From the NCBI GenBank assembly GCA_016630905.1, contig WBMQ01000012.1, positions 372,001 through 436,000 on the forward strand: 64,000 nt of DNA, written 5' to 3'. Below are positions 35,554 to 64,000 of the stretch, in pieces. Source of the stretch: Capillidium heterosporum. Its lineage: Eukaryota > Entomophthoromycota > Entomophthoromycetes > Entomophthorales > Capillidiaceae. Under the pieces are notes generated by a model. It did not search any database and was not told the origin of the DNA. It saw only the letters and a list, made by a program, of their open reading frames with translations. Both the position numbers and the translations under genes were made by a program. Positions within the stretch are counted from its first letter, which is position 1, and every line of letters begins with the position of its first letter.

Positions 35554-36885
35554 ATGACAAAACTAAAGCAAGAGGAAGGTATAAACTTTAACAAAGATAT
35601 TATCAACCACGAAATCAATGAGACGCCAACAACACAAGTGACGAAAGCTAGCGAGAGCTGGTACGGGTGGTTAGTTGCCCTAGCCAGCTTCCTTATGCAA
35701 GCTTGCTCTTTCGGAGTAGCTTCAGGGTTCGGCGTCTTTGTCGACTACTATGCCGAAAAAGCTTTTCCTAACTCCAAGTATACGGAAATTGCTCTTATTG
35801 GTACAATAGCACCAACCACTATAGCTTTTGCTTCCATGTTTACGGGGAGGCTATGTGATCTAATTGGGATTAGGAAGTGTGCTTTGATAGGAACGATATT
35901 AATTTCGGGTTCGTTAGTGATTGGATCGTTCTCAACAGAAGTTTGGCATTTAGTTGTAACGCAAGGTTTCATGTTTGGACTAGGTGGTGCCTTAGCTTAC
36001 GTACCTGCAAATACGGTAGTCGCTCACTGGTTCACCAAGAATAGGGGCTTAGCTTTTGGTATTGGGACATCGGGTATAGGTGTTGGTGGTTTGGTATTTA
36101 GTTTGTTGAATTCGTACTTGCTGCATGAGGTCGGGCACCAATGGACGTTGCGGATCAACGCTATAATAACATTCATATGTTTAGGCCTCTCTACCTTGAT
36201 CGTCAAATTGCCGAATACCACCAAAGACGATTCTGAGGAGCTAAATTCCAACCTGGCTACCAAGGAAGCTAAACCTTTCAACATATATATGCTTTTAAAT
36301 AGTAGGTTCCTTATTTTCGGATGCAGCACTATATTTGCATCTTTCGCTTATTTAGTACCTCTTTACTTCCTGCCTTCGTATGCCATCAACAACGGCTTGA
36401 CAGCGCAGCAGGGGGCTACTTTGTTAGCTGTAGTCAACGGTTCGTCAGCAGCTAGTAGGATAGTCCTCGGTCTACTATCAGATCGACTTGGCATCCTCAA
36501 CGTGTATCTAGCTTGCCTCATTGCTTCCACCTTGACGATGGTGATCTGGAGATTTAGTTACTCATTCACGCTGCTTATAGTATTTTCGGTTCTATATGGT
36601 ATACCAGCTGGTGGATTCGCCGGTGGATTCCCAGCCGCTTGTGCAGCGTTGTTTGGTTTAGATAATTTAGCGACTATAATGGGCTTCGCTTACGCTTTCA
36701 CAGGTGTAGGTGATCTAGGTGGCTCACTTTTGGCTGGGAGCATTTTGGATGCTACGAAGGATTACACCTATTTGATATACTATACTATTGTTCTGTATGC
36801 CTTGTCGAGTTTCTTCATGTTCATAGTCAAGGCTGTAGTTGTCGATCGACTTTTCTTGAGAAAAGTGAGAGTTGTTGAGAACTGA
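35554..36885 (+). CDS. MFS monocarboxylate-type transporter
   Basis: Single exon, 443 aa. The N-terminus MTKLKQEEGINFN is polar; helix 1 starts at WYGWLVALASF. The signatures are GRLCDLIGIRKC, AYVPANTVVAHWF, KNRGLAFGIGTSGIG and LGLLSDRLGI. The half-loop region carries ATKEAKPFN like the sisters at 23312 and 31770. The glycine pair in the late motif GDLGGPLLAG of the paralogs reads GDLGGSLLAG here, a Pro to Ser change in a membrane helix. TATAAATA lies 60 nt before the ATG. It is an intact member of the plus-strand MFS array; substrate unknown. Confidence 0.94.
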   Translation: MTKLKQEEGINFNKDIINHEINETPTTQVTKASESWYGWLVALASFLMQACSFGVASGFGVFVDYYAEKAFPNSKYTEIALIGTIAPTTIAFASMFTGRLCDLIGIRKCALIGTILISGSLVIGSFSTEVWHLVVTQGFMFGLGGALAYVPANTVVAHWFTKNRGLAFGIGTSGIGVGGLVFSLLNSYLLHEVGHQWTLRINAIITFICLGLSTLIVKLPNTTKDDSEELNSNLATKEAKPFNIYMLLNSRFLIFGCSTIFASFAYLVPLYFLPSYAINNGLTAQQGATLLAVVNGSSAASRIVLGLLSDRLGILNVYLACLIASTLTMVIWRFSYSFTLLIVFSVLYGIPAGGFAGGFPAACAALFGLDNLATIMGFAYAFTGVGDLGGSLLAGSILDATKDYTYLIYYTIVLYALSSFFMFIVKAVVVDRLFLRKVRVVEN

Positions 36886-38908: not shown

Positions 38909-40126
38909 ATGAAATTCAGCGTCTCCATTCTACTCTCCGCATTGGCCTTTGCCCAGCTTTCCCAGGCTGCTGTCGACTACACCAACCACAAGCTACTGAG
39001 ATTCGATGTTACTAACGACGCCGAAGTCGCCACCATCAAGGAGTACGTTGCCAAAAACCAGGTCGATACCTGGAACCACATCATGGTTGGTAAAGTCGAC
39101 CTCCGTCTCACCCCTGACCAGTTCAAATCTTTGGACGCCAACCTGAAGATCAAACATGAAGTCTTGAGCGACAACATTCAGAAGCTGTTCGACGAACAGA
39201 ACCAGCAGAACAGCCGTGCAGCCGGCTTCCCTGACAGCTACCACAGCTATGCTGAGATCACCCAGTGGTTGGACCAGATCGCCGCTGCAAGCAACGGTGC
39301 CGCCACCACTTTCAACATCGGAACTTCCTACCAGGGCAAGCAAATCAAGGGTATCTCCTTCCGCAAGCCTGGATCCAGCCCCAAGAAGACCATCTTCTAC
39401 CACGGTGGTATCCACGCCCGTGAGTGGATCTCTCCTGCCACCTTGGTTTACTTGATTGATGCTTTCTCTCGCTACTCCTCAGATTCGGCTCTCAGCTCCT
39501 TATTAGATACCTTCGAGTACTCCTTTATCCCTGTCGTCAACCCCGATGGTTACGAATTCTCCAGAAGCGGTGACCGTCTGTGGCGTAAGAACCGTCAGCC
39601 CAACGGAAGCTGCTTAGGTACCGACTTGAACCGTAACTGGAACTACCAGTGGCGTGCCGGTACCTCCTGTGACGAAGCTTACCCTGGACCCAGCGCCTTT
39701 TCGGCTCCCGAATCCAAGGCCATCTCCAACTACATCTCCAGCAAGGGCAACGTAATCAGCTACATTGACTTCCACTCATACGGCCAGCTGTTCATGCACC
39801 CCTACGGCTATACTTGCTCGGCCAACCCCGCTGATTTCTCCGCCCAGGATGCCGCCGCTAAGGCCGGTAACGCTGCCCTACGTGCCGTCAACGGTAGATC
39901 TTACAAGCAGGGTACCATCTGCAAGACCATCTACCAGGCCTTTGGTTCCTCTGTTGATTGGGCTTACGGTGTTGGTAGAGTTAAATACCCCTTCGCCATC
40001 GAACTACCCGATACTGGTGCCTACGGCTTTGCTTTGCCTGCCTCTTTCATCCCCTCCACCGGTGCCGAAATTTTGGCTGCTGTCAAGGCTCTCGGTAGCC
40101 ACATCAAGGCCAAGGAAGGTCTCTAA
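38909..40126 (+). CDS. Secreted metallocarboxypeptidase A (M14)
   Basis: Single exon, 405 aa. A signal peptide (about 1-20, ending LSQAA) is followed by an activation propeptide of about 90 residues, then the M14 catalytic domain. Zinc ligands are H169 and E172 in HGGIHAREW and H289 in DFHSYGQ. The catalytic general base is E365 in FAIELPDTG. Substrate-binding DLNRNW and LWRKNRQ are present, and Y342 corresponds to Tyr248 of bovine enzyme. The residue aligned with position 255 is Val (GSSVDW), which in this family predicts A-type preference for hydrophobic C-terminal residues. It is a secreted zymogen that trims C-terminal amino acids from extracellular peptides. TATA box at 38864-38871. The coding sequence is C-rich at third positions, suggesting high expression. 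A dead copy (46187) and a live copy (48000) follow. Confidence 0.96.
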   Translation: MKFSVSILLSALAFAQLSQAAVDYTNHKLLRFDVTNDAEVATIKEYVAKNQVDTWNHIMVGKVDLRLTPDQFKSLDANLKIKHEVLSDNIQKLFDEQNQQNSRAAGFPDSYHSYAEITQWLDQIAAASNGAATTFNIGTSYQGKQIKGISFRKPGSSPKKTIFYHGGIHAREWISPATLVYLIDAFSRYSSDSALSSLLDTFEYSFIPVVNPDGYEFSRSGDRLWRKNRQPNGSCLGTDLNRNWNYQWRAGTSCDEAYPGPSAFSAPESKAISNYISSKGNVISYIDFHSYGQLFMHPYGYTCSANPADFSAQDAAAKAGNAALRAVNGRSYKQGTICKTIYQAFGSSVDWAYGVGRVKYPFAIELPDTGAYGFALPASFIPSTGAEILAAVKALGSHIKAKEGL

Positions 40127-42519: not shown

Positions 42520-43485
42520 TTAGGAACCGTAGTTAGTCTTATCGTTAGCAGGGTTGTAGCCAGCTGGAGGGGTCCACTTGAAATCAGCAGGGGGAACCCA
42601 ACCAACGGGGTGAGCCTTGGCCCAATCTTCAGGCTCCTGATAAGGCTCACCGTTAGGGGGGAACTGCTGACCCGATTGAGCAGGTGTACTTACGGCGTAA
42701 CCTTGCTGGGCATTAGCATTAGCAGGGGCAGTGAAAGCAGCAGGAGCGCCTATACGAGGAGGACCATAGGGGCAGACGTCAACTTGGGCGGGGTCGAGGG
42801 AGTGGCCCTTGGCGCAAGATTTCTCGTCGTTACGACCCCAGAACCTACACTTGGTCTTGTCGGCGACGGCGACATCGCCACCTTCGAAGAGAACAGGAGC
42901 TTTGACATCAGTCAAAGGAGCACCGCCACTGATGATGAAGTCGGAGCAGGAGTAGAAGTTGCCAAAAGGAGCGTAGCGGTTCCCTTGGTTCATACCACCA
43001 GCGAACCAGATGAACTGGATGGTGTACTCACCGTCGGGGACGTTGGTAGGTAAAGTAAGGGTGGAGCGGCAGGTACCGTTGGATTGGGGGCCGGGGTGGT
43101 TGGGGCCACCTAGATACCCGTGGTAGGGGCTGGCACCGTCTTCACTACAGCCAACTTCAGCGCAGTTGTACTTGATGACACCTTGGTCAAAGGATTCCTG
43201 GCTATTGGACTGGGAGGTAGGTACTAGAGAGAAACGAACGAAACCACCAGGGTGGTTGAGACGCAACCAGGTGGTGGGAATGGTCTGACCACGCTGATAG
43301 GTGGGTTTCTGACGGTAGGTGTAGTCGGTTTGAGCATAGGTAGCTTCGCAAGGTCCCTCACAGCCCCGTTCCGGAGTACAAAAGCCCCAGTTGGGGGCCT
43401 GACTACCACGAATGGGAGGCTGGTCCATACGCATGTGACCGGCTACCAAAGACAATAAAGCTAAGGTGAAGGTAGACTTTAACAT
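42520..43485 (-). CDS. Secreted LPMO-like protein
   Basis: Single exon, 321 aa. A 16-residue signal peptide ends exactly before His17 (LVAG/HMRMDQPP), so cleavage would expose an N-terminal histidine, the hallmark of copper lytic polysaccharide monooxygenases. A second candidate brace histidine is H78 in LNHPGGFVRFSLVP, and an aromatic near the end of the core (GNFYSCSDF) is in the usual axial position. The core (17 to about 195) has paired cysteines including CTPERGCEGPC and YNCAEVGC. A Cys-containing segment and a long Pro/Ala/Gln-rich tail with WVPPADFKW and TPPAGY repeats follow, possibly a linker or wall-associated region. It probably acts on extracellular or wall polysaccharide. The exact AA family cannot be assigned by eye. 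A 5' UTR hexamer repeat and a TATA box at about 43614-43621 precede it. Confidence 0.75.
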   Translation of the reverse strand: MLKSTFTLALLSLVAGHMRMDQPPIRGSQAPNWGFCTPERGCEGPCEATYAQTDYTYRQKPTYQRGQTIPTTWLRLNHPGGFVRFSLVPTSQSNSQESFDQGVIKYNCAEVGCSEDGASPYHGYLGGPNHPGPQSNGTCRSTLTLPTNVPDGEYTIQFIWFAGGMNQGNRYAPFGNFYSCSDFIISGGAPLTDVKAPVLFEGGDVAVADKTKCRFWGRNDEKSCAKGHSLDPAQVDVCPYGPPRIGAPAAFTAPANANAQQGYAVSTPAQSGQQFPPNGEPYQEPEDWAKAHPVGWVPPADFKWTPPAGYNPANDKTNYGS

Positions 43486-46186: not shown

Positions 46187-47323
46187 ATGAAGCTCAAAAT
46201 CTCAATTCTACATCACATATTAAAAATTGTTTAGCTATATCAAGCTGCTGTAAACTATACTAACCACAAACTAATACGATTTGATATGACCAACAATACC
46301 AAAATCACTATCATCGAAGACTACATCTCCAGCAACAAAGTCGACATCTGAAATCATATCGAAGTTGGTAAAATAGACCTCTGTCTTACTCCTGACCAAT
46401 TTAAATCTTTTGATGGCAAACTTGATATTTAACATAAAATCTTGAGTCACGATATCCAGAGGTTATTCGATAGAAAGTGGGAAAATTCAACTCGCTTTCC
46501 AATTTTACTGATAACTACTACTCCTATACAGAGATTACTCAATAGCTAGGTATGGTTGCAACCACCTCAAAGGGTGTTGCTATCACCTTCAGCATCAGAA
46601 TTTCGTACGAAGATCATCAAATTAGGGGAATTGCATTCAAAAAGCTTGGATCCTTCGTTAATAGGATCATTTTTTACCATGGTGGTGCTCACACTTATGA
46701 ATGGATTTCGCCTGCCACTTTAATATATCTAATTGATAACTTCTCTAGGTACTCTGTCACGAATATTTTAGGAGCAGTGATCGATTATGGCGAAAGAACT
46801 GTTAGCCTTACCGAAAGTGTCTGGGTATCGACTTGAACCGAAACCAGGATTTTAGGTGGCATAAAAGTACTTCCTATAGCAAAACGTATCCGAGATAAAG
46901 ATCTTTCTTGGCTCTCAAATCCTTAGCTCTATTCAATTTATCTTGACTAGAGGCAACATCATCAGTTCTATCGACTTCCACAGCTATAATAAGCGAGTTA
47001 TATTCTCATTTGGATATTTGTGTAAAATTAAATCAGTGGACTTTGATATTCAACATAAAGCTGCAGTCGCTGCACTGTTCAGAGTCAACGGTAGATCGTG
47101 CCATCAAGAAACTATCTGTAAGATAATCCATATATTTTACAATAGTTCGGTCGATTGAACTTACCAAATTGATAAAATGATGTATCCCTTCACTATAGAG
47201 TTATCGGACGATGAGGAATATAGGTTTGCACTATCGACATCCTACATATCCTCTACTAGCACTGAAATTTTTGCTATAATCAATACTATTTGCAGGTATA
47301 TCAAAGCTAACGAAAGATTCTAA
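46187..47323 (+). pseudogene. Degenerate M14 carboxypeptidase
   Basis: A decayed copy of the flanking carboxypeptidases. The start at 46187 and the NYTNHKLIRFD block align with the intact propeptide, but stops interrupt it early (in the signal peptide, at the DIW position and in the LDIKH position). Open blocks at 46552-46836 and 46943-47158 keep recognisable catalytic-domain pieces, including HGGAHTYEW with both zinc ligands and the DFHSYN region. The catalytic-end sequence reads TIELSDD. The Tyr248-equivalent is His. Multiple stops and frameshifts exclude a product. The composite upstream element of the two live copies is not visible here. Confidence 0.92.
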
Positions 47324-47999: not shown

Positions 48000-49217
48000 A
48001 TGAAGTTCAATACCTCAATCTTACTCTCCATATTGGCATTCTCGCAGCTGTCTTCAGCTGCAGTTGATTATACCGGGCACAAACTGTTACGATTCAACGT
48101 AACTACCAACGTCGAGGTTGCAGCTGTCCAAGCCTATGTCTCCAAAAACAATATCGATGCCTGGACCGACATTCGAGTTGGAAATGTGGACCTCCATCTG
48201 ACTCCAGAGCAGTTCAAGACAGTGAATCGTAATCTTGGGATCAAGCACCAAGTTGTAAACAATAACATCCAAAAGCTGTTCGACGAGCAGTTTGACAAAA
48301 CCAGCCGTGCCGCCAGCTTCACCGACCAATATCACAGCTACGCCGAGATCACCCAGTGGTTGGACCAAGTCGCCGCTGCCTCCAAGGGTGTTGCTACTAC
48401 ATTCAGCATCGGAACCTCCTACGAAGGTCGTTCCATCAAAGGGATCTCATTCCGCAAGCCTGGATCCTCAGCCAAGAAGACTATTTTCTACCATGGTGGT
48501 ATCCATGCCCGTGAGTGGATCTCTCCTGCAACCTTAGTTTACTTGATCGACGCCTTCTCCCGCTACTCTTCGGACTCTGTACTTGGCTCATTGTTGGATA
48601 CTTTCGAGTACGTTTTCGTTCCCGTTGTCAACCCGGACGGCTATGAATTTACCAGAAGTGAAGACCGTCTGTGGCGTAAGAACCGTCAGCCTAACCAAGG
48701 CTGTTTTGGTACTGACTTAAACCGCAACTGGAACTACCAATGGCGTCAAAGAAACTTCTGTGATGAAGCTTATCCCGGACCTAGTCCCTTTTCAGCCCCC
48801 GAAACTAAGGCGGTAGCTGATTACATCTCGAAAAAAGGCAATATCCTCAGCTACATTGACTTTCACAGCTATGGCCAGTTCATAATGCACCCGTACGCAT
48901 ACTCTTGCAGTACTACCGCACCCGACTTTGACGTTCAAGATGAAGCTGCCGAAGCTGCTCGCACGGCTATTTTAGCAGTCAACGGTAGAAGTTATCGCCA
49001 GGATACAGTATGCAACATCGTAAAGCAAACTTTCGGATCCTCGGTCGATTGGACCTATAACGTGGGTAAAATCAAGTACCCATTTGCCATCGAGTTACCA
49101 GATACTGGGAACTTTATGTTTGCTTTACCTGAATCATTCATCCCTTCCACTGGGGCCGAAATTTTGGCTGGAGTCAAGGCCATCGGCAACTATATCAAGG
49201 CTAAAGAAGGCCTTTGA
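48000..49217 (+). CDS. Secreted metallocarboxypeptidase (M14), Tyr248-equivalent replaced
   Basis: Single exon, 405 aa, collinear with the gene at 38909 without length change. Signal peptide about 1-20 (ending LSSAA), propeptide, then the M14 domain. Zinc ligands H169, E172 and H289 and catalytic E365 are kept, as are LWRKNRQ and DLNRNW. The residue equivalent to Tyr248, which caps the bound substrate in carboxypeptidase A, is lysine here (CNIVKQTF versus CKTIYQAF in the sister). The 255-equivalent is Val. The enzyme should still bind zinc but may differ in specificity or rate (inference). TATAAAAA lies 34 nt upstream of the ATG. Less C-biased codon use than in the first copy. Confidence 0.95.
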   Translation: MKFNTSILLSILAFSQLSSAAVDYTGHKLLRFNVTTNVEVAAVQAYVSKNNIDAWTDIRVGNVDLHLTPEQFKTVNRNLGIKHQVVNNNIQKLFDEQFDKTSRAASFTDQYHSYAEITQWLDQVAAASKGVATTFSIGTSYEGRSIKGISFRKPGSSAKKTIFYHGGIHAREWISPATLVYLIDAFSRYSSDSVLGSLLDTFEYVFVPVVNPDGYEFTRSEDRLWRKNRQPNQGCFGTDLNRNWNYQWRQRNFCDEAYPGPSPFSAPETKAVADYISKKGNILSYIDFHSYGQFIMHPYAYSCSTTAPDFDVQDEAAEAARTAILAVNGRSYRQDTVCNIVKQTFGSSVDWTYNVGKIKYPFAIELPDTGNFMFALPESFIPSTGAEILAGVKAIGNYIKAKEGL

Positions 49218-52100: not shown

Positions 52101-53829
52101 TGGAATAGAAGCTGTTTGTAGAGAACTATATGTTTCGAGTTATCTTAAAATCGACTTTATATACTTGTTACAAAGCTTATAAAATATAGAAGCGTAGGTT
52201 AAAGATGGCATTAATGTAGCTAACAGTTCATATTGCATCTCTAATTATTCTAATCAAACATATTTTACACTTTACAATAACTATGCCATAAATGAAGACT
52301 TTCCTATTTGACAAGTTACAAAATATTTATGCCTTAAAGGGTATCTATTCGATTTTATATAGAGTACTCTATATTTTCCTTTCATGATAACTTAGCAATA
52401 AGGTCCAACTCCACATATTTGTATATACATTATAATAAAAGTTGAAAAAATTTGATAAATGAGAAATATAAATAGCTGATATTCGAGTAATATATTCACT
52501 ATTCTTAGGTTGAGGATACCTATGGTAACTTATTTAGATATTTGAGCCAGTACTACCTACCTTTAAAGCCAGTAGTGCGTGCCTTTTGGTTCATATCATG
52601 CAAATAGTAGTCATCGATAAAGCAGCTAATTTATAGCTCTTACTGGAGTTGGTATTACCCATCATACCTAACACCAGGTAGATTGCAAATTGAGCCATCT
52701 ACTGAAGTGCTAAGGATTTCATCCCTTTAGATAAAGTTGATGTTATCTGTAGCTCCTAATTTAAAAACTGAAGTTGATGCAGTTGTATACGGACTTCTTG
52801 ACACTTACATTCCCCCCTAAATTAAAATTCTAACCTGAAATTATACATATATTTAAGATAATTATATTTTAATTGGAGTGCTTTGTAACTAACAGGGATG
52901 ACAATGAAGCTTTCTATTTATTATTTTGCCATATAGCCTTAAACTTACATTTCTACTGTTATTTAAAATACAAGCTAGCTTGCTTGCTTGATCAATGTTC
53001 CTTTTATACACTTTATTTACACTGATCTTAGCAGCTATTATCCTTTTGTAGTATAAGTTTCGAAAGGATGTGTTTAAGTGATTTGATGGAAAATTGCTAC
53101 CATCATTGTTACCAAAGCTGAAAACATGCACACATTAAAATTTTATAGCACAGATGTTTGAATCCTTCCAAATGTAAGAAATATTAGATATAATACTCCG
53201 ATTTCATTGAATGGGCATTTTAACATGTAAACTTATGGACTAAAAGCATTCACTTGATAAAGTCATGATAGCTATTAGCTGGCAAGTAATTGTTTTGCAA
53301 GTCAGAAAGTGTCTTTTTAAAGATTTAGTTGAGTGGCTGTAAATTACAATATGAGTTTAGCTTCCTTTATATAGTTCAAGGTAAATCGAGCTAGAGATAG
53401 AAGGCTTATTTTGCATGGATGGTGTACAATTAGCTGTATTTAGTCTCCAAAGATTTCGAAATGCTAGATAAAGTTAGGCATCCTTGTTCAAGGCCTATAT
53501 ATATGATTTGGATTGAAAATTTCCAAAGGGAATAAAGGGTTTAAGCCGCATTTCGCCCAAAATATGGTTGTAGGAAATTAAACTATATAGGTTTAAAAAT
53601 AAGTGAGTTGCCTAATAGCGTTGATATCTCATAAATTTATTGGAATACCACTTGCAAGTTTAACCTAATTTATGTCATGTACTGCAGTTTTCATTGGAAA
53701 TATGCTTCAAAGTGAACAGGGTGTCAGAATACATTTTCATCCAGATGTTTGACAATGCTTGCAAAAGGCATTTGCAGTAAATATTAAACATGGGTATTTG
53801 GATATTTAAGCTTTTTAGTAACTACAGCC
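52101..53829. other. Intergenic between divergent small secreted gene and Zn2Cys6 gene
   Basis: A 1.7-kb AT-rich gap starting with the core promoter at 52151-52163. A short GCTT microsatellite is near 52976-52991. The frame 52889-53131 is not supported. Confidence 0.5.
52151..52163 (-). promoter_or_regulatory. Extended core promoter TATATAAAGTCGA
   Basis: On the minus strand this reads TATATAAAGTCGA, ending 50 nt upstream of the ATG at 52100. The identical 13-mer occurs at 58384-58396 and 61440-61452. Confidence 0.65.
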
Positions 53830-55695
53830 ATGGAAAATATCAACCTATCGTCGATTCCTTGCGATAGATGTAGGCATCAAAGAACTTACTGCGACAAGGA
53901 GCTCCCTACCTGTGGAAAGTGTCAGCACAAATCCTTCGAATGCTCGTATACATTTATCGCTAGAAGAAAACCGGTCAACAAACAAAAACTACATATGGAT
54001 ACGTTGCTAAATGAAGAGGCAGGCAAAGAAAGCTTCAAAAATCTGACCCTTAGCAACTTTAAAGCTCCAGAGACAGTCACTAATAACAAATGTGCAGTGC
54101 AGCAAAACCAAAGCGATAAGGCAACAAAGGTGGGAATAAAGTTGAATGATAGATCTTTGAGGTTGTGGAAGCCCAAGAATAACAGATATTCGATAAGAGA
54201 TACAGTTGTCCATTCCAAGTTATTCCTAGAGTACGTAAATGCCAAGTTTGGTCTTTTGCATGTACTGCTCCGAAATTCCATAGTAGATACCAAGCAAAGG
54301 GTGTTTGTCTTCACGACTGGTACTTTAGACTACTATGGTGAGAGCCCTATCGGAAAGTTGCTGACAATGTACATCGTCCATCATTCCAAACCCAGTTCTC
54401 TAGATGAGCTGATTGGATGTAGTAAGGCTCCATCATCCGTCATACTCCCTCCCATTAGTAAATTCATTGACGTTCAAAGTTTATATGATAAGTTTAGCTC
54501 ATTTTTTATAGTAAATCGATGTATAAAAGCATACTTCCAGTATTGGCATCCTCAATTACCAATAGTCAACAAACGTTTGATAGTCGAAAACTTCGAGAGC
54601 CATCCTCCAGCACTACAGAGCATAATATGCTCCATCGGGTCTACCTACCTTCCAGAGATGACTGATAGCATACGAGATTATTTCAGTGATGCAGCAGTCA
54701 AAGCATTGGAAAGCCGTTATCTGGATTGTACGCTCGATACCATCAGTATACTCCTCCTAACGTCCAGCTTCCAACACAACCCCAAAGACTTCTCCAAAGG
54801 GTTCTTTAAGCTCGGCCTTGCCATCCGAATGAGCTATACCTTAGGCCTGGATAGGGATCCACCACCTGGAACTGATTTGGAGACCATTGAACTTCGAAAT
54901 CGAATATGGTGGTGGCTGCATATATACGACAAGCTGTATGGGTTTGCGGTGAACAAATCGCTTTCTCACGATTTTTGGTACAGCACTAGACCGTCCCCGA
55001 AGCTCAGTACGATGGACTTTTCACAAGATGATTCTGAAGAGTACAAATTTGCCATGATGTGCTCCTGCCTGTTCACCAAATTGTTTGGGGAATTGTGCTA
55101 CATCATGAGCGCCATGATAATCAAGTTTGAATTTTCGACGCGCATTCCACACTTCAAACTGGCAGATGTCAACCGATTGGCACGGACAGCTGGGCAGAAT
55201 TTAGGATTGTGGGAGCAAAAGGTAGATGCCCAGTTTAGAGAGCTCATTATCTACAACGAGGGTAAAGCTGCAGATGTAGCTCCCCCCTTCACCTTCATAT
55301 TGAAGTTGACCATGAACTTTGTCTTACTTCAGACCTACCAAGCTTTTTCCAAGGTCGACGATCGAGATATAGCCATCTACTTTAGGGAGAAAGCTAGTAA
55401 GGTGGCTGATAATATCATTGAATTTTCAGCAAGTATGGGCAATGCCTTCTACTTTGCCGGTCTCTCCTACAAGCTTTACTCCCTCTGCTTGGCCGCCCTC
55501 TACCAGGTTAGGAATGCAAATTCGGAGGATAGTGTGTTGGCAGCAAAATCCATAGCCAACTTGAAGTCGGCCCTGAAGATCTTTCAGGTGGACAGGATTT
55601 ACTGCAGCTTTGCAGCCGAGTACCTGCAGTTAGTTTTGCTGATAGCAAAGGCGGAAAACTTGGACTTGGGGAGTGAGTTCTATGATGTTAGTTAG
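53830..55695 (+). CDS. Zn2Cys6 fungal transcription factor
   Basis: Single exon, 621 aa. The zinc cluster C11-x2-C14-x6-C21-x6-C28-x2-C31-x6-C38 (CDRCRHQRTYC and onward) is complete; a Lys-rich linker follows (KPVNKQKLHMD). The block VHSKLFLEYVNAKFGLLHVLL and the middle region ELRNRIWWWLHIYDKL (about 353-368) are shared with the other copies. It is a sequence-specific nuclear regulator by family, with unknown targets. The family's KDK triplet is YDK here, and FAVNKSLSHDFW replaces FAVNRPFAHDFR, so the middle domain has diverged somewhat. Intact and intronless, with the small secreted protein genes on both sides. Confidence 0.94.
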   Translation: MENINLSSIPCDRCRHQRTYCDKELPTCGKCQHKSFECSYTFIARRKPVNKQKLHMDTLLNEEAGKESFKNLTLSNFKAPETVTNNKCAVQQNQSDKATKVGIKLNDRSLRLWKPKNNRYSIRDTVVHSKLFLEYVNAKFGLLHVLLRNSIVDTKQRVFVFTTGTLDYYGESPIGKLLTMYIVHHSKPSSLDELIGCSKAPSSVILPPISKFIDVQSLYDKFSSFFIVNRCIKAYFQYWHPQLPIVNKRLIVENFESHPPALQSIICSIGSTYLPEMTDSIRDYFSDAAVKALESRYLDCTLDTISILLLTSSFQHNPKDFSKGFFKLGLAIRMSYTLGLDRDPPPGTDLETIELRNRIWWWLHIYDKLYGFAVNKSLSHDFWYSTRPSPKLSTMDFSQDDSEEYKFAMMCSCLFTKLFGELCYIMSAMIIKFEFSTRIPHFKLADVNRLARTAGQNLGLWEQKVDAQFRELIIYNEGKAADVAPPFTFILKLTMNFVLLQTYQAFSKVDDRDIAIYFREKASKVADNIIEFSASMGNAFYFAGLSYKLYSLCLAALYQVRNANSEDSVLAAKSIANLKSALKIFQVDRIYCSFAAEYLQLVLLIAKAENLDLGSEFYDVS

Positions 55696-57005
55696 ATCAC
55701 TCAGCCACCTTTCCATCCTTCCTAAAATGAGTAAGCTCTAATCTTTAGATGGCCCTGGCTACAAGCTCTCGCTTATGCATCTAATTTATTAGTATCCAAT
55801 TGAATTGCACATTTGATTGAATAAGTTTGGAAACATCTAAGTTTTGACAAACCAGCTTTAGAATCGAAGCAACCCAATATCAAGTCCATCCCAGCAAGAT
55901 AAACAAGGTTCTAAATTAAATAGGGTGCAGTTAGTCAGGGACCTATTGAGCACATCTTTTTGGAATGGGCGATTAACTCACTAGAGCGCACATCATAGTG
56001 TTTGTGATAAAGCATCGTAATGGGGAGTAGCTGTAGACATAAAGAGAATGAGCACATACACCTATTTTCATTTCATTTTAAACTTGAGGCCTTGACGGAT
56101 CAATGAGCACTGTACTACTAAAAATTTGCAGTAGCTGTTCTGAGCTAATAAGATACCTTCTTTATAAATAAATTTATATAAAGTATTGAAAATACCCCTA
56201 CTAATTTGAAACGAAGTATTGCGAGAAGCTTCATGATTTGGTAGATGATTCAACCAAGGCTTACGTAGCATCTTTAGGTAGGAACTATGCTAATATTCTC
56301 TGTACCGTTCCAATTTTATCAGGTATAAGAGACGTATAGAAATACATATTACACTTAAACAGACGTCAGAATATTGTAGATATAACTAACAAAATAGCCA
56401 TGTGGGCTAGAGTTTGTAATGGCTAAATCATCTTTGAATCAAGCTTGGAGGTTGGATCGTAGCTTTCAAATTCAAACTGTATTAAGCTTTAAAACAATGA
56501 CTTTTAATCAATGGACTGCTGTAGCAGATATCATAAATAGCATATTTTACAAAATATATAGTTTTCACTTCAAAATGGAATGCATATACAGCTACTGGAT
56601 GAAGAGACTTGATACTCCAAGTTAGAAGCTGATCGAGCAACTGGACTAAAATTACTATAAAAGCATACCTTCAAAGCCTTACAAAGACACAATCCAAATA
56701 GTACTATTGAAGAACAAGAAAAGTCAAACCATACCTATGATTTATTCAACGCGTACAAAACAAAAGACTAAAGGTGGCGAATCTGAATGCCTGATTAATT
56801 TGAGCAACTTTTGTAACCTCAAATCAATTAAATCCAAGAATTTGCATGGCTTCTATATAAAATATCAAACCAACCCATCAAAAACCATAAGCTCCAACTC
56901 AACTGTCAACAAAACTCAATATCAACACGACTACCTACATACTAAACATATAAGCAAAATACAAAATATCAAATTAGAATGTAATATTTATATAAGATAA
57001 AGCAC
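55696..57005. other. Intergenic, no gene seen
   Basis: A 1.3-kb gap. The plus frames at 56419-56625 and 56707-57000 are Lys/Asn/Ser-rich low-complexity reading of AT-rich DNA with no domain, and I do not call them. Confidence 0.5.
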
Positions 57006-57287
57006 TTAACATCCAGAACCACAGGTCCACTTGTGAGTCCAACAGCCACCAAAGCTGGCTGTCTTCTTGCAGGATAAGCTGTTGTAACCTTCGGGCTTGC
57101 AATCATAGCCACGGTTGGATAGGCCATTCAAGAACTGGTCACGGTGATGGGAACCTGAGTAGTGGCAAGCGTTGTCGGTACAAGAGTAGTAGCAGCGGCC
57201 ATTGCGGTCACTGGCGGCAGAGCAGGCAGAGTCACAGGCCAAGGTGGTGGCTACGAGAGTGGCGATGAGGATGAGATTCTTGAACAT
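57006..57287 (-). CDS. Small secreted 10-cysteine protein, copy 1
   Basis: An intact 93-aa frame. Residues 1-17 are a clear signal peptide (hydrophobic, ending TTLA), leaving a 76-residue mature chain beginning with Cys. It has ten cysteines, enough for five disulfides, in the family pattern C-x3-C-x9-C-x3-C-x4-C, a long loop, then five more, ending C-x6-C-x3-C. Conserved blocks are GRCYY, HHRDQFLNGL, RGYDC and HKWTCG. I do not recognise a named family. Size, secretion and disulfide density fit extracellular effector, antimicrobial or toxin-like proteins, but activity is unproven. The 3' two thirds are nearly identical in DNA to the copy at 59336. A TATA-like element lies at 57344-57352. Codons are C/G-rich compared with the surroundings. 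Confidence 0.85.
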   Translation of the reverse strand: MFKNLILIATLVATTLACDSACSAASDRNGRCYYSCTDNACHYSGSHHRDQFLNGLSNRGYDCKPEGYNSLSCKKTASFGGCWTHKWTCGSGC

Positions 57288-58426
57288 TTTGAATTGTTGG
57301 ATTTGGATTTGTTTTTTGTTAAAATTGGATAGTTTTGGAAGTCTTTATATATCTTTGTAGATGTCAATTTTTTATGGTGACTTTGTATGTTATGTAGTGG
57401 GTTTTTGAGAATCTATGTGTTTTTAAAGTATGTACCGAAGTTTAACAGTATATCAGTTGTCTCGTATAATTCTTTTCAATATATTGAGCCAGGTGTATTC
57501 TGTCGATAAGCAATGGAAGTAGAACTTCGGTATAGTGGCTCGACCAGCTTGATTGGAAAGCTTCCTATTTAGCCTCGAAGTTGGGTAAGCACTAATGTGA
57601 AAAGGTGTCACTGCACTTATTGCAATGTATCCATAGGAAATTTCCTCCATATAGGTAAATAAGACTCGGCTTTGATTTGAAACGTAAATCACTTTGTCGA
57701 TATTCAGCCAGCCTTTGCTATATTTAGCTAACACTTTACCAAATATAGTTACATTAAAGTGCTACGTCTCGCATGCAAACTGCCAAACTAAAGATGGCTT
57801 TGGTCTATAAAAGGTAGAATTGATGAATCCAATGGTAAATAGTTTAAGACCTAGGTACCTTTACCAATGTTATTCCATCTACATATAGATGGGTTTTATT
57901 CTAAAACCTACATCTGCAGGCTAGCAGTTGAGCGGATGCCAAATCGATTAGCTTGGTTATATTTATGGAAGAATGTTGCAATTGTGCCTCAAGCATATTT
58001 TAGTTTGGCTCCCTTGATCGGCTGAATTTAATTGTCTTGCCAAAGTTGGTAAAGTTGCTGACGGCATATTTAAGCGTAAAGACCTTGACAGGTAGCTAAA
58101 TTGTCCAAGTTATCCAAAACCAAATTCATGTATGACGGAATGGACAGGGTATCTTTGGGGTTGGATCTGTAGGATGGCTTCTGTTAGGTGAGATTTATGC
58201 CTTTGCCAATATCCTGCTTTAACTAATAGGTTAAAGCTTACAAGTCCGAAACATATAGGTTGAATGACCAGCATTCCCCTATATGGTTCCGGTACATAAA
58301 TCGAATCTTTACATCACACTCTAAGCAGCTTGAAAACTCTACCGCCAATTTACAAATCAAGTAAACGATGACACCAGGTCACCTATATAAAGTCGACACT
58401 AGCATCCTTCCTCACCAAAGACAAGA
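57288..58426. other. Intergenic, divergent promoter region of two 10-Cys genes
   Basis: 1.1 kb between divergent copies 1 and 2. It holds the TATA box of copy 1, and the dyad plus TATA of copy 2 at its right end. The minus frame 57453-57734 is not supported. Confidence 0.55.
58369..58396 (+). promoter_or_regulatory. Dyad plus extended core promoter of 10-Cys gene copy 2
   Basis: TGACACCAGGTCA (58369-58381) directly abuts the core promoter TATATAAAGTCGA (58384-58396), 30 nt before the ATG at 58427. The dyad matches the TGAC-N5-GTCA sites of the carboxypeptidase promoters. Confidence 0.7.
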
Positions 58427-58705
58427 ATGCTCAAAAATATTTTAATTTTCGCCACCCTAACTCTAGTCGCTTTATCCTGTGATGATGCTTGTACGGCAAC
58501 CAAGGACAGCGGAGGTCGTTGTTACTATACCTGTAAACGCATGTGCAGTTGGGATGCTACTCACCACCGTAATCAGTTTTTGAATGGCTTGGGACTTCGT
58601 GGCTACAGTTGCAAAGCCGAAAGTGCAAGTACTTTGTCGTGTACCAAAACAGGTGACTTTGGTGGGTGTTGGGGTCATAAGTGGACTTGTGGTGCTAACT
58701 GTTAG
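58427..58705 (+). CDS. Small secreted 10-cysteine protein, copy 2
   Basis: An intact 92-aa frame with a 17-residue signal peptide (ending LVALS) and a 75-residue mature chain with ten cysteines. It shares GRCYYTC, HHRNQFLNGL, RGYSC and GHKWTCG with the other copies but is the most divergent: the fourth-to-fifth cysteine spacing is three residues instead of four, and the Asp of HHRDQ is Asn. Function is unknown; probably secreted and disulfide-rich. It is the only family member with the TGAC-N5-GTCA dyad, placed right next to its TATA box. It is convergent with copy 3. Confidence 0.85.
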   Translation: MLKNILIFATLTLVALSCDDACTATKDSGGRCYYTCKRMCSWDATHHRNQFLNGLGLRGYSCKAESASTLSCTKTGDFGGCWGHKWTCGANC

Positions 58706-59335
58706 GTGTTTGGATTTAATAAATACATTTTCATAGTCCTCTTTTGTCAAATTTATATTTCTTAACGTAGTCGGTAGATTTGAAGGTGGTGTAGTCGTAT
58801 ATATAATGTGTTAGCATATGTTACGGGTGTTGGTTTGAAAGTTCAAAGTATATTTGTGCTGGTATATCTATCTACATGGGATAAGTTGCATTCAATAATT
58901 CCACTTATCGATGGAAAAGTTAGAATAGTGTTATGAATTTAACCTTGCAATTTGTAGTTATCAAAACACACTATCTGTACTGCCAACTTGAGGTTCTGAT
59001 TGTAGCTAGCAAATCACCAATTCAACATCTTTTCAGAATACAAATTTGTATCAGCTTACTATAAAGTTTGTCAATACTCTTTGATAAAACTGTCAATATA
59101 AATATATTTTATAATAGTATGCCTTTCTTTTCATGTAAAACACCACGCCCAACCCTATTTCAATTTTTTGTAAGGCTCATATTAAAAATTAGAATAAAGC
59201 ATCAATATAAGTCGGTGATGCTATCTTGCCTATCTTTGCATACCTATTCAACACAAATTAGTTCAAGTGATTACATATAGGCATTAAACACTAACAGCCC
59301 AGCGCTTATAAAAGTAAAATTTATTGAGTATATGC
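58706..59335. other. Intergenic between convergent 10-Cys genes
   Basis: A 0.63-kb AT-rich 3' flank of two convergent genes. Nothing recognised. Confidence 0.55.
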
Positions 59336-59617
59336 TTAACATCCCGAACCACAGGTCCACTTGTGAGTCCAACAGCCACCAAAGCTGGCTGTCTTCTTGC
59401 AGGATAAGCTGTTGTAGCCTTCGGGCTTGCAATCATAACCACGGTTGGATAGGCCATTCAAGAACTGATCACGGTGATGGGAACCTGAGTAGTGGCAAGC
59501 GTTGTCGGTACAAGCGTAGTAGCAGCGTCCGTTACGATCACTGGAAGCGGAACAGGCGTTATCACAGGCCAAGGTAGCAGCGACTAAGGTGGCGATTAAG
59601 AGAACGTTCTTGAGCAT
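59336..59617 (-). CDS. Small secreted 10-cysteine protein, copy 3
   Basis: An intact 93-aa frame; signal peptide 1-17 (ending AATLA), mature chain of 76 residues with ten cysteines. From the third cysteine region to the end it is identical to copy 1 except for one residue (YYAC versus YYSC), while the signal peptide and first mature residues differ more. At DNA level the last about 180 bp differ from copy 1 at only about four sites, so even silent positions are nearly fixed. TATA-like element at 59667-59674 (reading GGTATATAAACC on its strand). Function unknown; same caveats as copy 1. Divergent with copy 4. Confidence 0.85.
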   Translation of the reverse strand: MLKNVLLIATLVAATLACDNACSASSDRNGRCYYACTDNACHYSGSHHRDQFLNGLSNRGYDCKPEGYNSLSCKKTASFGGCWTHKWTCGSGC

Positions 59618-60868
59618 ATTGACTGTTGTGTATTGTTTTTAGTGTGGATGGCTATGCTTTGCATGGTTTATATACCTCTTCAAATGCCATATTTCAACTC
59701 ATATACTTTGAATTATTTAAGCTCACCAAGCTATTTTTTCATGTCTATGTCATCAATATATTGAAAGTCACTTGAGCATTTGGATTCGGTATGCAGTCCT
59801 GTAGCTATATTTAGAGATACTATCAAAGCATATATAGAATTTAAGCGATCCTAAAACGCTAATGAACCTTGATACATCTGCAGGTTTCTTAACATACTCA
59901 TAGCTATTACAAAACATCTGGATAAGGTAGTATTTGTAAAGTATACATGCATACATCCGTACTATGTCCCGTACCCGCTTAAGGGATATTTATACACTAC
60001 TGCCATGGTACCAGCTCAAAGTGGATACGCACTTTATATATAGTCTTTTAGAACAAAGAAGTGGCCTTGAAGTGTTAGAATTAAGTACACTATAGTTTTA
60101 ACCCACCAAGCTTAAAATATATGTTGGAAACGTTTGGTTAGCTCCAATACGTTTACTTATCTTCATATTTGCCAAAGCTGTAGGTATACATTGAAGTTAG
60201 TTCCGAACCAGCTAGAACGTTTAGAACTAACCTGCTAATCTACTTATAATAAAAAAGCCTTTAGGCTATATATAAGCTATTGGAATTAGAGTTAGAACAT
60301 TTGCCTGTCTACAAATGTCCTATTGCAGCAACCACTATATCTTCGGCTATCCAGACCTTCAACCCAAACTTCCATATCCGAATGACTAAATTAGGCAAAA
60401 ATGTAATTAGAGTACTTTAGGTAGAGCAGTCAAAATTTTTGGAATATTTACCCGGAGTCCATGAGCTCTATACTTCAAAATGCATAGCTTATCAGAAGCT
60501 AATTGCTTTCGAGCAGTCACCTACTGCCAAAGTTCAACAGGCATGTCTTGTTATTTTTAAGCGCTGCATGCACAATTTAGTATAGGTTTCTAACAGTAGG
60601 CATTACAAACTATTATAATCCTACCTAATCTAGGCATACGCCGATTTCTGCCTCTTTATTAGAGGCTCAGATGGGTCGTGCCATGTACTTTTATAGATTA
60701 CGGTTTTTATTTCAGAAGCTCGATGCTATGATGTAGAAATCATTTGTAAGGTGATATGCTTTGCTGAAAGTTTGGATACCCCTGATATATTTGATTGAAG
60801 GTAGCGTATATATAGCAGCCCAGAGATCTCTCACATCAAAAACCAAGCATTCCATTCCAATACTAACT
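59618..60868. other. Intergenic, divergent promoter region of 10-Cys copies 3 and 4
   Basis: 1.25 kb with TATA boxes at both ends (59667-59674 and 60807-60814). Half-site-like TGACA words occur but no full dyad was found. No gene is seen. Confidence 0.5.
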
Positions 60869-61144
60869 ATGAAATCCCTAGCTCTACTAATCGCCTTTGT
60901 CGCCGGTGTACTGTCTTGTGACACCGCCTGCTACACCAACGGGGATCGTAACGGTCGTTGCTACTACATCTGCCAGAAAAAGTGCAGCTGGGCTGAAAGC
61001 CACCACCGCGACCAATTTTTGAACGGGCTACAGATTCGTGGTTATGACTGTAACGCCGAAGGATACAACACTTTATCCTGTAAGAAGAATTCTGGATTCG
61101 GAGCTTGTAACTCTCATAAGTGGACTTGTGGTGCCAACTGTTAA
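60869..61144 (+). CDS. Small secreted 10-cysteine protein, copy 4
   Basis: I start at the ATG at 60869 (91 aa), not at an in-frame codon 108 nt upstream, because the upstream extension crosses the TATA box at 60807-60814 and lacks family similarity. Signal peptide 1-16 (ending GVLS), then a 75-residue mature chain with ten cysteines. It shares GRCYY, SHHRDQFLNGL, RGYDC and SHKWTCG. The eighth cysteine is in GACNSHKW, where copies 1 and 3 have GGCWTHKW. The fourth-to-fifth cysteine spacing is three, as in copy 2. Probably secreted; role unknown. Confidence 0.85.
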   Translation: MKSLALLIAFVAGVLSCDTACYTNGDRNGRCYYICQKKCSWAESHHRDQFLNGLQIRGYDCNAEGYNTLSCKKNSGFGACNSHKWTCGANC

Positions 61145-62540
61145 TACTTTTCAATAAAATCTATGTTGTTTTCTTAATATATGTACCGCCAACTCTTAAT
61201 TTGTATATTTGGCTATATACATAATGCGTATATAGTTTTCTGATATTTATAAGGCTATAGTTGTATCAGATCCATTTATTTTTCAAATCGATGGTTTTCA
61301 ATCAGGATATAGGAATTCCAAAGTTCGGTTCCTTGGCTCATAACTGTTCAGGAAATCTGGGCAAGTTTTTATAACTCAATAGTGAGAATCTGTTCAAAAT
61401 CTCTGAACAGAGTTCTAACTTTATAAAAAGGTCTCAAAATATATAAAGTCGACAGCCATCGTTCGATACCACAAGCTAAGACAGTAATCAAAAGTTACTG
61501 CTACACTGTTTATAATTAATTAGGTCTAATATATCTAGATTTATAGATGGGCTTGCAAATTCAATTCCAAAATAAAAGGATACTATCATTTATTTAAGTG
61601 TACTATTCTGTCTGTTTTGGAACATATAGCGATAGTCTATGGATCAAAGATTCCTCGATTTGAGTTTCGTAAGAGAAAAAACAAATCTACGCATCAAAAG
61701 CTGAGATAGGTGCTTGACAGATTTAGATATAACCTCTAAAAAGAATAGCTACACACTTGATTGCAACTAATAGTAGTGCTGAATTTACATTTAAGTTTTG
61801 GATGGCTTCACATAGTTGGACGTATAGATTCTAGGCCTACTTACACTACTTCCATTTTATATATCATATCGCTTTTAGTATTCTAAATTCTCTAAGCAAG
61901 GAAGCAATAGGCTCGGAATTAAAGTGACCCAGTTTAGGTTTATAGTTCTATCAGTTAAGTTTACTTTTTGCAGTAGTAGGTGGATAGCTGATGAGTGTTT
62001 AAAGGTGTAAGTATTTGGTAAATCTTTCGATCCTATGAGATTTGTTCGCTTTGTCAATCTTTGCAACTTATAAATTGACATATTTTGATGGGCAGCTAAA
62101 GCCAAGCAGAAACTACTTGGTACTGCCCAATTCAAAATTTCGGAAGAGTTGTTCATTGCAGCCCATATCCAAACTTGCTAACTATGCAAAGCTTCTAATT
62201 TGTAATTCATCTTCCAATTAGAATTCCCTACCATCTTTAAGCTTTTACTTATACTGCACCTGTTTCAAGTTGCTGCAACAAACCTACATTGCCCATCAAT
62301 TTAAATATTAGTTCGATAAGGAAAGCTCAAAAGCAATACAAACTGTTGCAAATATTGTGGAATGGAGCCCTATTAGCATCCTAGTTTTAGGTAAATGCCA
62401 ACTTAATATATGTGTAAAAGCTTAATTCCATACACTATTCTAAAGCAGTCTATTTTAAACAATGCTGATCATATAAGCTATCTTAACTTTTATAAACAAT
62501 TGTAAACTATTTATACAGGCTTTTATGATCTTAGTATTCA
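61145..62540. other. Intergenic with promoter relic
   Basis: 1.4 kb between 10-Cys copy 4 and a Zn2Cys6 gene. It contains the orphan core promoter at 61440-61452 with no frame behind it. The minus frame 61875-62156 is not supported. Confidence 0.5.
61440..61452 (+). promoter_or_regulatory. Orphan core promoter TATATAAAGTCGA
   Basis: The same 13-mer as at 58384-58396. The following 20-25 bp also resemble the 5' UTR of that gene (AAGTCGACA, then a CATC word, TC-rich bases, ACCACAAG versus TCACCAAAG). No coding frame follows, so a gene may have been lost here. Confidence 0.5.
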
Positions 62541-64000
62541 ATGAGCTCCAAAAAAGAATGCAGTGTTACATCGAGAGTTTCCTGTGATCGATGCAGAAGG
62601 CATAGACGAGCTTGCGACAGAGGGATGCCCAGCTGTAGCAGATGTCAACAATCATCAAGTGAATGCAACTACACATCAACCTTCAAATTTATTCCGAAAA
62701 ACAAACCGACTTTAGATAGATATCCAGCTTTCAATATAGAACAAAATCAAAAGTCCAAGGGTATAGCACTAGGTGTCTTTGAACAGATGGGGCCCAACAC
62801 AAGCCAATTAGAAATAGTCCACTGGCAAAAATCAGCAACCTCAGAGAAGAAAAACCAAGTGGACTTCACCAACAAACCAACTTATATATGGAGGCCACCT
62901 AACCAGAATGGTCGATTAAGAGATAGATACCTCCACCCCAAGCTAAAGTTGCAAAGAACAAGCATCAAATTCCATCTGCTTCACGCCTTGTTCAGAAAAT
63001 CCATCTTTGACAACCAAAAGGTATTTGCATTTGGAACCGGGTCCCTAGATTACTACGGCGACAACCCGATGGGTAGATTGATAACGATGTACGTGATCCA
63101 TCACTCCAAGCCCAAATCTCTAGATGAGTTGATTCGAAATAAAAAGAAGGTGTCTACCACTTTACTCCTCCCCATAACTATGTTGGTCGACGCTAAGGAT
63201 TTACAGGATAGGTGCAGTGCGAACTTCATAGTTGGTCGATGTGTTCAAGCCTACTTTCAGTACTACCATCCCCAAGTACCAATAATCAGTAGACGCTCGA
63301 TAGTTGAAAACTTTAAAGGCCATTCGCCAGCGTTGCAAAACATAATATGCTCCATCGGATCCACCTTCATCCCGGAGATGGCTGTCGACATACGGGACTA
63401 CTTCAGCGATACCGCAGTTCGATCGCTTAGAAGCAGGTACTTGGACTGTACGCTCGATAACATAAGTGTACTCATACTGATGTCTGACTTTCAACACGAT
63501 CCCAAGGACTATTCCAATGGATTCTTTAGAATCAGTCACGCCATTCGCATCAGCTACACACTAGGGTTGGATCGAAATCCACCGCCTGGGACTGACCCAG
63601 AAACTACCGAGCTGAGGAACCGAATTTGGTGGTGGTTACATATAAAGGATAAGCTCTATGGGTTTGCAGTTAATAGACCCTTTGCTCACGACTTCCGATT
63701 TAGCACTAGGCCGTTTCCAAAATTTGGTAATATGGATTTTTCCAAGGACGATAGCTCAGAGTACAAATTTGTCATCCGGTGCTCCTGCTTGTACCTGAAG
63801 TTACTGGGAGAGCTCTGCCATATAATGAGTCTTATGATCCTCAAGTTCAAATTCTCAACACGTATTCCCGATTCCGAGTTAGAAGATATCAACAAATTAG
63901 CCCGTGCAACCGGCCAGCATGTAGAGCTATGGGGCCAGAAGGTGCATGCTCAATTTAACGAACTTACCAACGAACATGACCATCGGTATGAAGGTTTGGC
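62541..64000 (+). CDS. Zn2Cys6 fungal transcription factor, 3' part cut by window edge
   Basis: Open from the ATG at 62541 to the window edge: 486 codons, about 78% of the family length. The zinc cluster is at C15-x2-C18-x6-C25-x6-C32-x2-C35-x6-C42, set four residues deeper than in the paralogs because of a different N-terminus (MSSKKECSVTSRVSC). The cluster is more basic than its sisters (CDRCRRHRRAC). The conserved block around LHALFRKSIF, the DYYGDNPMGRL segment and the middle region ELRNRIWWWLHIKDKL are present. It is the most divergent N-terminus of the four factors, so it may recognise different DNA spacing (inference). No stop or frameshift in the visible part. Confidence 0.92.
   Translation, partial: MSSKKECSVTSRVSCDRCRRHRRACDRGMPSCSRCQQSSSECNYTSTFKFIPKNKPTLDRYPAFNIEQNQKSKGIALGVFEQMGPNTSQLEIVHWQKSATSEKKNQVDFTNKPTYIWRPPNQNGRLRDRYLHPKLKLQRTSIKFHLLHALFRKSIFDNQKVFAFGTGSLDYYGDNPMGRLITMYVIHHSKPKSLDELIRNKKKVSTTLLLPITMLVDAKDLQDRCSANFIVGRCVQAYFQYYHPQVPIISRRSIVENFKGHSPALQNIICSIGSTFIPEMAVDIRDYFSDTAVRSLRSRYLDCTLDNISVLILMSDFQHDPKDYSNGFFRISHAIRISYTLGLDRNPPPGTDPETTELRNRIWWWLHIKDKLYGFAVNRPFAHDFRFSTRPFPKFGNMDFSKDDSSEYKFVIRCSCLYLKLLGELCHIMSLMILKFKFSTRIPDSELEDINKLARATGQHVELWGQKVHAQFNELTNEHDHRYEGL

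Follow-up and report, generated by a model that had tools for sequence, protein, structure and literature searches.

Fungi release several kinds of compact, disulfide-rich exoproteins, among them the KP4 killer toxin and the strongly cationic antifungal proteins of the PAF/AFP type. Defensins with a cysteine-stabilised alpha-beta (CS-alpha-beta) framework, the type of VdAMP3 and plectasin, have a helix with CxxxC and a last strand with CxC and follow the order alpha-beta-beta. Verticillium dahliae is reported to use VdAMP2 and the CS-alpha-beta defensin VdAMP3 as antimicrobial effectors (PMC9438471). Here we analyzed four genes, c1 to c4, for small proteins with ten cysteines in a stretch of 64,000 nucleotides (the window) of Capillidium heterosporum contig WBMQ01000012.1. 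The contig is referred to as C4, the window corresponds to C4:372001-436000, and the genome comprises 29.5 Mb in 44 contigs. Coordinates are window positions unless prefixed, and "extended" coordinates continue the window numbering along C4. The four proteins belong to a family of small, secreted and cysteine-rich fungal proteins that apparently has no name, and which was found here with further paralogs, relatives in other fungi, an inverted duplication and linked Zn2Cys6 regulators, all beyond the initial annotation of this DNA.

The initial annotation described four intact open reading frames (ORFs) of 91-93 aa with ten cysteines and conserved blocks, in the order -,+,-,+, and we re-found the ORFs, their order and the ten cysteines as claimed (Table 1). 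The blocks HHR[DN]QFLNGL and HKWTCG are present in all four proteins, and successive cysteines are spaced 3-9-3-4-21-9-8-6-3 in c1 and c3 and 3-9-3-3-21-9-8-6-3 in c2 and c4. By inspection, each protein begins with a hydrophobic signal peptide ending before C-D; with ten cysteines in 91-93 aa they agree with the definition of small secreted cysteine-rich proteins (<300 aa, N-terminal signal, high cysteine content). Genes c1 and c3 are 92% identical over the full length and 96% over the mature part, while c2 and c4 share 60-65% with these two and 61% with each other over the mature part. The DNA pattern for HKWTCG, with at most two mismatches allowed, occurs at four sites in the window, exactly in c1-c4, against 0.14 expected. 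Given this excess and the relatives in the genome and in other fungi, the four genes are not a product of chance.

Table 1. Positions of the peptide genes, their TATA boxes and the linked features in the window
Feature	Position	Strand	Remarks	Evidence
c1, ten-cysteine protein	57006..57287	-	93 aa; group A	intact ORF
c2, ten-cysteine protein	58427..58705	+	92 aa; one residue fewer between the fourth and fifth cysteines	intact ORF
c3, ten-cysteine protein	59336..59617	-	93 aa; group A	intact ORF
c4, ten-cysteine protein	60869..61144	+	91 aa; one residue fewer between the fourth and fifth cysteines	intact ORF
TATA box of c1	57346..57351	-	-64 from ATG	
TATA box of c2	58384..58389	+	-43	
TATA box of c3	59669..59674	-	-57	
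TATA box of c4	60807..60812	+	-62	
Zn2Cys6/Fungal_trans regulator	53830..55695	+	faces c1 tail to tail across 1311 bp; belongs to the clade of regulators facing group-A copies	Pfam PF00172 and PF04082 above cut-off; tree 100/99
Second regulator of the same family	62541..64000	+	downstream of c4 in tandem, about 1.4 kb; runs past the window end; outside the c1-facing clade	tblastn, tree
32-kb inverted duplication, left arm, window part	52457..64000		other arm C4:470510-502555	99.4% identity

No match, or none beyond chance level, came from Pfam, NCBIfam, PHROGs, PADLOC and PDB sequences, in agreement with the earlier statement that no named family has this signature, and a literature search over titles and the beginnings of abstracts of open-access papers found no description of this family. 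Hidden Markov model and structure-prediction searches, which had been proposed as a check, likewise matched no characterised domain and gave no convincing structural match. AlphaFold2 was run on 14 sequences in two jobs with different first sequences (c3 and c4). The best models reached a predicted local distance difference test (pLDDT) score of 84.0 for c3 and 90.4 for the mature part of c4. Both show the order beta-beta-alpha-beta-beta, the jobs agree on secondary structure, and the main predicted helix (28-41 in c3, 27-40 in c4) contains no cysteine. The fold is to be taken as a prediction, because within the two sets of five models the mean pLDDT went down to as little as 51 and 53. No convincing match for the c3 and c4 models was found in structural libraries.

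The four genes had been proposed as a cluster of paralogs, and they are in fact part of a genuine multigene family with further copies in the genome and relatives in other fungi. With c3 as query and a cut-off of E<=0.001, we obtained 26 matches genome-wide. Half of these (13) are full-length intact copies on C4, all within 429-523 kb, and four of the 13 arise from an inverted duplication. Two more intact ten-cysteine copies lie on C44 (156861-157136) and C42 (14131-14418), and a copy on C23 (1393701) has an open frame with the last block lost and six cysteines left. Stops or a frame broken into halves mark seven matches (the C10 pair; C4:504711, 517844, 91595 and 97154; C44:154595). The two on C32 are incomplete or broken, whereas a diverged match on C23 (1490719) has an open frame. 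The C44 copy as query yielded one additional match, C44:155662, with a stop. These broken and extra copies indicate that family members are actively gained and lost. Group A here comprises c1, c3 and c5 (C4:464535), together with the decayed copy on C10. The ten-cysteine framework is present in all 21 aligned intact sequences, three of which have minor spacing changes; the six-cysteine C23 copy and decayed copies were excluded from this alignment. Two decayed peptide fragments, C4:91595-91708 and C4:97154-97267, lie on opposite strands 5.5 kb apart with matching printed translation over about 700 bases, a hint of another recent inverted duplication.

Relatives were also found outside the genome. 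A single-sequence search detected five clusters, and a profile of 13 sequences detected eleven at E<=0.01 among 1521 candidates. The named clusters come from six species, namely Purpureocillium lilacinum (two), P. lavendulum, Mucor velutinosus, Backusella circina, Halteromyces radiatus (two) and Mycotypha africana; the named ascomycete matches are confined to Purpureocillium, and all other named ones are Mucorales. Over the mature part, relatives are 52-83% identical to the window's four proteins. PLICBS_005253 (P0001) of P. lilacinum and P0006 of P. lavendulum have the same ten-cysteine framework and differ in being ascomycete proteins annotated as "hypothetical protein"; the name "Aur1" on P0006 is, in our reading, a mis-annotation, and the literature search returned no study of either. 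They share 83% and 82% mature identity with c1 and 86% with each other, and c1 shares 60% with its own neighbour c2 and 65% with c4. The Mucorales relatives (including Mucor velutinosus ATC70_013172, Backusella K501DRAFT_170510, Halteromyces and Mycotypha) also have this framework, with 52-78% mature identity to c1-c4, and are unnamed proteins with no Pfam domain listed. Contamination is unlikely, since the contigs that carry the Purpureocillium genes reach 5.1 Mb in P. lilacinum and 4.2 Mb in P. lavendulum. In a tree of 21 mature sequences, 13 of the 18 inner branches were open, none was starred and the bootstrap had not settled; with the tree mostly unresolved, it is distribution and identity that suggest horizontal transfer between fungal phyla, and extreme constraint would look similar.

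Selection was evaluated by the ratio of nonsynonymous to synonymous substitution rates (dN/dS) over the 36 pairs among the nine distinct C4 copies. Full-length values were computable in 18 pairs and range from 0.010 to 0.254, mostly rough because dS exceeds 1 in 16 of the 18, so the dN/dS near 1 that the initial annotation had named as a sign of relaxed constraint was not observed. The two pairs with dS below 1 gave 0.099 (c1-c3) and 0.098 (c8-c9). The dN of the signal peptide is higher than that of the mature part in 32 of the 36 pairs, the exceptions being c1-c6, c5-c6, c7-c8 and c7-c9. From these comparisons, the mature protein looks to be under strongly purifying selection.

Copy number has been raised through local, inverted and module duplications. 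The left arm of the 32-kb inverted duplication extends from 52457 to extended 84500 and the right, inverted arm from extended 98510 to 130555. The arms align over 32,051 columns, and each includes five regulators and four peptide genes. Of the 189 substitutions between them, 78 fall in the nine coding regions examined (10,392 bases) and 111 in the remaining 21,652 bases; therefore coding DNA overall has changed no less than the remainder. Between the arms the four peptide genes show four silent codon changes and one residue change, located in the c4 signal peptide, and the mature proteins are identical; the coding sequence of c3 is identical to its arm copy (C4:495392-495670). The five regulators show 33 silent and 33 residue-changing codons. 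One of them, at extended 69788-71647, stands out with 21 silent and 14 changing codons between the arms, an excess that may stem from conversion by another paralog. An assembly error is an alternative source of the inverted duplication, and reads would be needed to exclude it.

In the 164 kb examined, we found 15 genes of the Zn2Cys6/Fungal_trans family with open frames, five per duplication arm (Pfam domains were tested on three). Within the window they form a dense array of intronless paralogs (16979-18826, 28607-30475, 53830-55695, and 62541-64000 and onward). The regulator facing c1 matched 71 genome sequences at E<=1e-30 (71 of 195 candidates scored), and a single search outside the genome gave no relative at E<=1e-10 among 4465 candidates. 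After itself and its arm copy, its best matches are the regulators C4:464956 (70%) and C10:24125 (66%), both of which face a group-A peptide gene tail to tail, the former at a distance of 137 bp and the latter with a decayed partner. In a tree of 13 regulators (ten on C4 and one each on C10, C42 and C43; arm copies excluded, most of the 71 unsampled), the three facing group-A copies form one clade with support of 100/99. The C4:464 and C10 regulator-peptide units are colinear and align as a single piece of 2573 bp at 82%, and they therefore go back to one duplication of the unit and do not count as separate cases. The unit in the window aligns with both in two pieces, with about 1.1 kb extra between regulator and peptide gene. 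Taken together, these alignments and the tree provide good evidence for the joint inheritance of some regulators with their peptide genes, and regulator plus peptide gene were duplicated together at least once; for control of the adjoining peptide gene by the regulator, the arrangement is only suggestive.

As for function, we favour, at a probability of about 45%, a secreted, disulfide-locked protein acting on a conserved target outside the cell, probably in microbial antagonism or defence. The preprotein would lose its signal peptide, and the resulting mature protein of about 75-76 residues, presumably closed by five disulfides into a beta-beta-alpha-beta-beta domain, would be released as a stable extracellular binder. 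Its target would most probably be competing microbes or their hydrolases, and the Zn2Cys6 regulator beside part of the family may switch the secreted protein on. Near-neutral charge (net KR-DE -2 to +4, isoelectric point (pI) 5.8-8.6 over 21 sequences) and conservation are easier to reconcile with an external target under constraint than with an arms race against particular hosts. Mucorales and Purpureocillium are mostly soil or dung fungi, which also fits a general outside target, and we counted for antagonism the AA11-type lytic polysaccharide monooxygenase (LPMO) and two intact M14 carboxypeptidases sharing the window with the peptide genes. Several observations weigh against this reading. 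Most membrane-acting antimicrobial peptides are strongly cationic, unlike these mature proteins, and no fold match backs any given activity. A tail-to-tail regulator is present for only two of the nine distinct C4 genes (c1 and c5), the other seven face none, and c7-c9 are 18-22 kb from the nearest regulator found. CGG/CCG pairs at most 12 bp apart occur within 400 bp upstream of only two of the nine (c3 and c6), so no regulator site is evident; moreover, the equal numbers of silent and changing codons in the regulators indicate loose constraint, and hitchhiking accounts for the linkage no less well than regulation.

The same neighbours, a chitin-type LPMO and M14 carboxypeptidases, would also suit effectors that the fungus releases while infecting or preying on an animal (insect or nematode) and that disable a host protein, and so would the effector-like size and cysteine content, the tandem expansion and the relative in P. 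lilacinum, a fungus of nematode eggs and insects. We regard such effectors as somewhat unlikely, since the mature domain is under purifying selection without sign of diversification and close relatives are found in Mucorales, mostly saprotrophs. Strong constraint and near-neutral charge could instead point to a function for the producing fungus itself, in its wall, its spore coat, the wetting of its surface or its development, perhaps under the linked regulator, and the linkage to a Zn2Cys6 regulator clade and the presence in saprotrophic fungi are in line with it; the patchy distribution (six named species, 11 clusters), varying copy number and decayed copies are unusual for a core structural role, and we consider this self-directed role unlikely.

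The protein might also be a catalytic mini-enzyme or a scavenger of metals or other ligands, with His30, Glu49, Ser55, Lys58, His68 and Trp70 (c3 mature numbering) as active or binding site. These six residues are invariant over 19 sequences, including those from other phyla, but Glu49, Ser55 and His68 differ in the intact ten-cysteine paralogs on C44 and C42, His30 differs in the latter, and no enzyme fold was matched, which makes this quite improbable. A composite reading seems doubtful to us, in which a novel ten-cysteine domain, having a disulfide fold of its own, and a dedicated Zn2Cys6 regulator form a module that is duplicated as such, exchanged horizontally between early-diverging fungi and Purpureocillium, and used as a tool against other organisms. 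Most work on fungal effectors rests on Dikarya, and a strongly constrained secreted protein common to Mucorales and one ascomycete genus, in some places next to a regulator gene, would be a handy system for studying function beyond plant infection, which could also show whether such proteins move between fungal phyla. If the preferred antagonistic role is correct, the family would add a new stable scaffold to the known fungal antimicrobials.

The initial annotation further proposed dedicated TATA promoters and distinctive codon use. TATAWA is present at -43 to -67 in all nine distinct C4 peptide genes, including the window's four. However, it is also found within -70 to -37 in all four MFS (major facilitator superfamily) genes, five of ten regulators (one start uncertain) and three of four other genes, with 8% in random slots. 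The idea of dedicated promoters was thus abandoned, as TATA boxes are general in this genome. Besides TATA, no convincing shared upstream motif was found among the peptide genes. Fifteen bases of the c2 promoter (58384-58398), TATATAAAGTCGACA, recur at 61440-61454, downstream of c4, where there is no peptide ORF; they may be a promoter relic. Distinctive codon use holds for c1, c3 and c5 pooled (lysine AAG 15, AAA 0) and not for c2 and c4 (AAG 6, AAA 6). The pooled M14, LPMO and DUF4112 genes use AAG 48 and AAA 23 times, and the regulators 263 and 256 times. The AAG lean of group A, like that of the M14/LPMO/DUF4112 genes and unlike the regulators, is a hint of high expression.

Other neighbours in the window include the secreted AA11-type LPMO candidate (42520-43485), which matches the AA11 structure 4mah at E 2.3e-05 and has no confident Pfam domain, and M14 zinc carboxypeptidases, two of them intact and 74% identical (38909-40126 and 48000-49217) and a third copy that looks broken (46187-46937). 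There is also an array of MFS transporter paralogs (10158-11498, 23318-24655, 31770-33110 and 35554-36885) with broken-looking pieces between them; three copies are 69-74% identical to that at 31770, and two were tested by Pfam.

Compared with the described systems, the window proteins may resemble VdAMP3 and VdAMP2 in being secreted against other microbes, and VdAMP3 is also cysteine-stabilised (PMC9438471). A CS-alpha-beta defensin does not fit: in both predicted models the main helix is free of cysteine and the order is beta-beta-alpha-beta-beta, and a cysteine spacing of 1 occurs in none of the 21 sequences. Neither the framework and order of VdAMP3 nor any sequence or fold match to it was found. 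KP4 gave no Pfam match for the four window proteins at E<=1 or for ten proteins (one window, six other-species and three own-genome paralogs) at E<=10, and its alpha/beta fold is not among the structural matches listed, which are unable to exclude it. A PAF/AFP-type cationic antifungal does not agree with the charge range given above or with the absence of a Pfam match. The window proteins are compact and presumably disulfide-rich like KP4 and PAF/AFP, and differ from them in not being strongly cationic and in having no Pfam match. They are of a protein kind already well known, and what is new is the cysteine framework, the predicted fold, the cross-phylum pattern and the regulator linkage.

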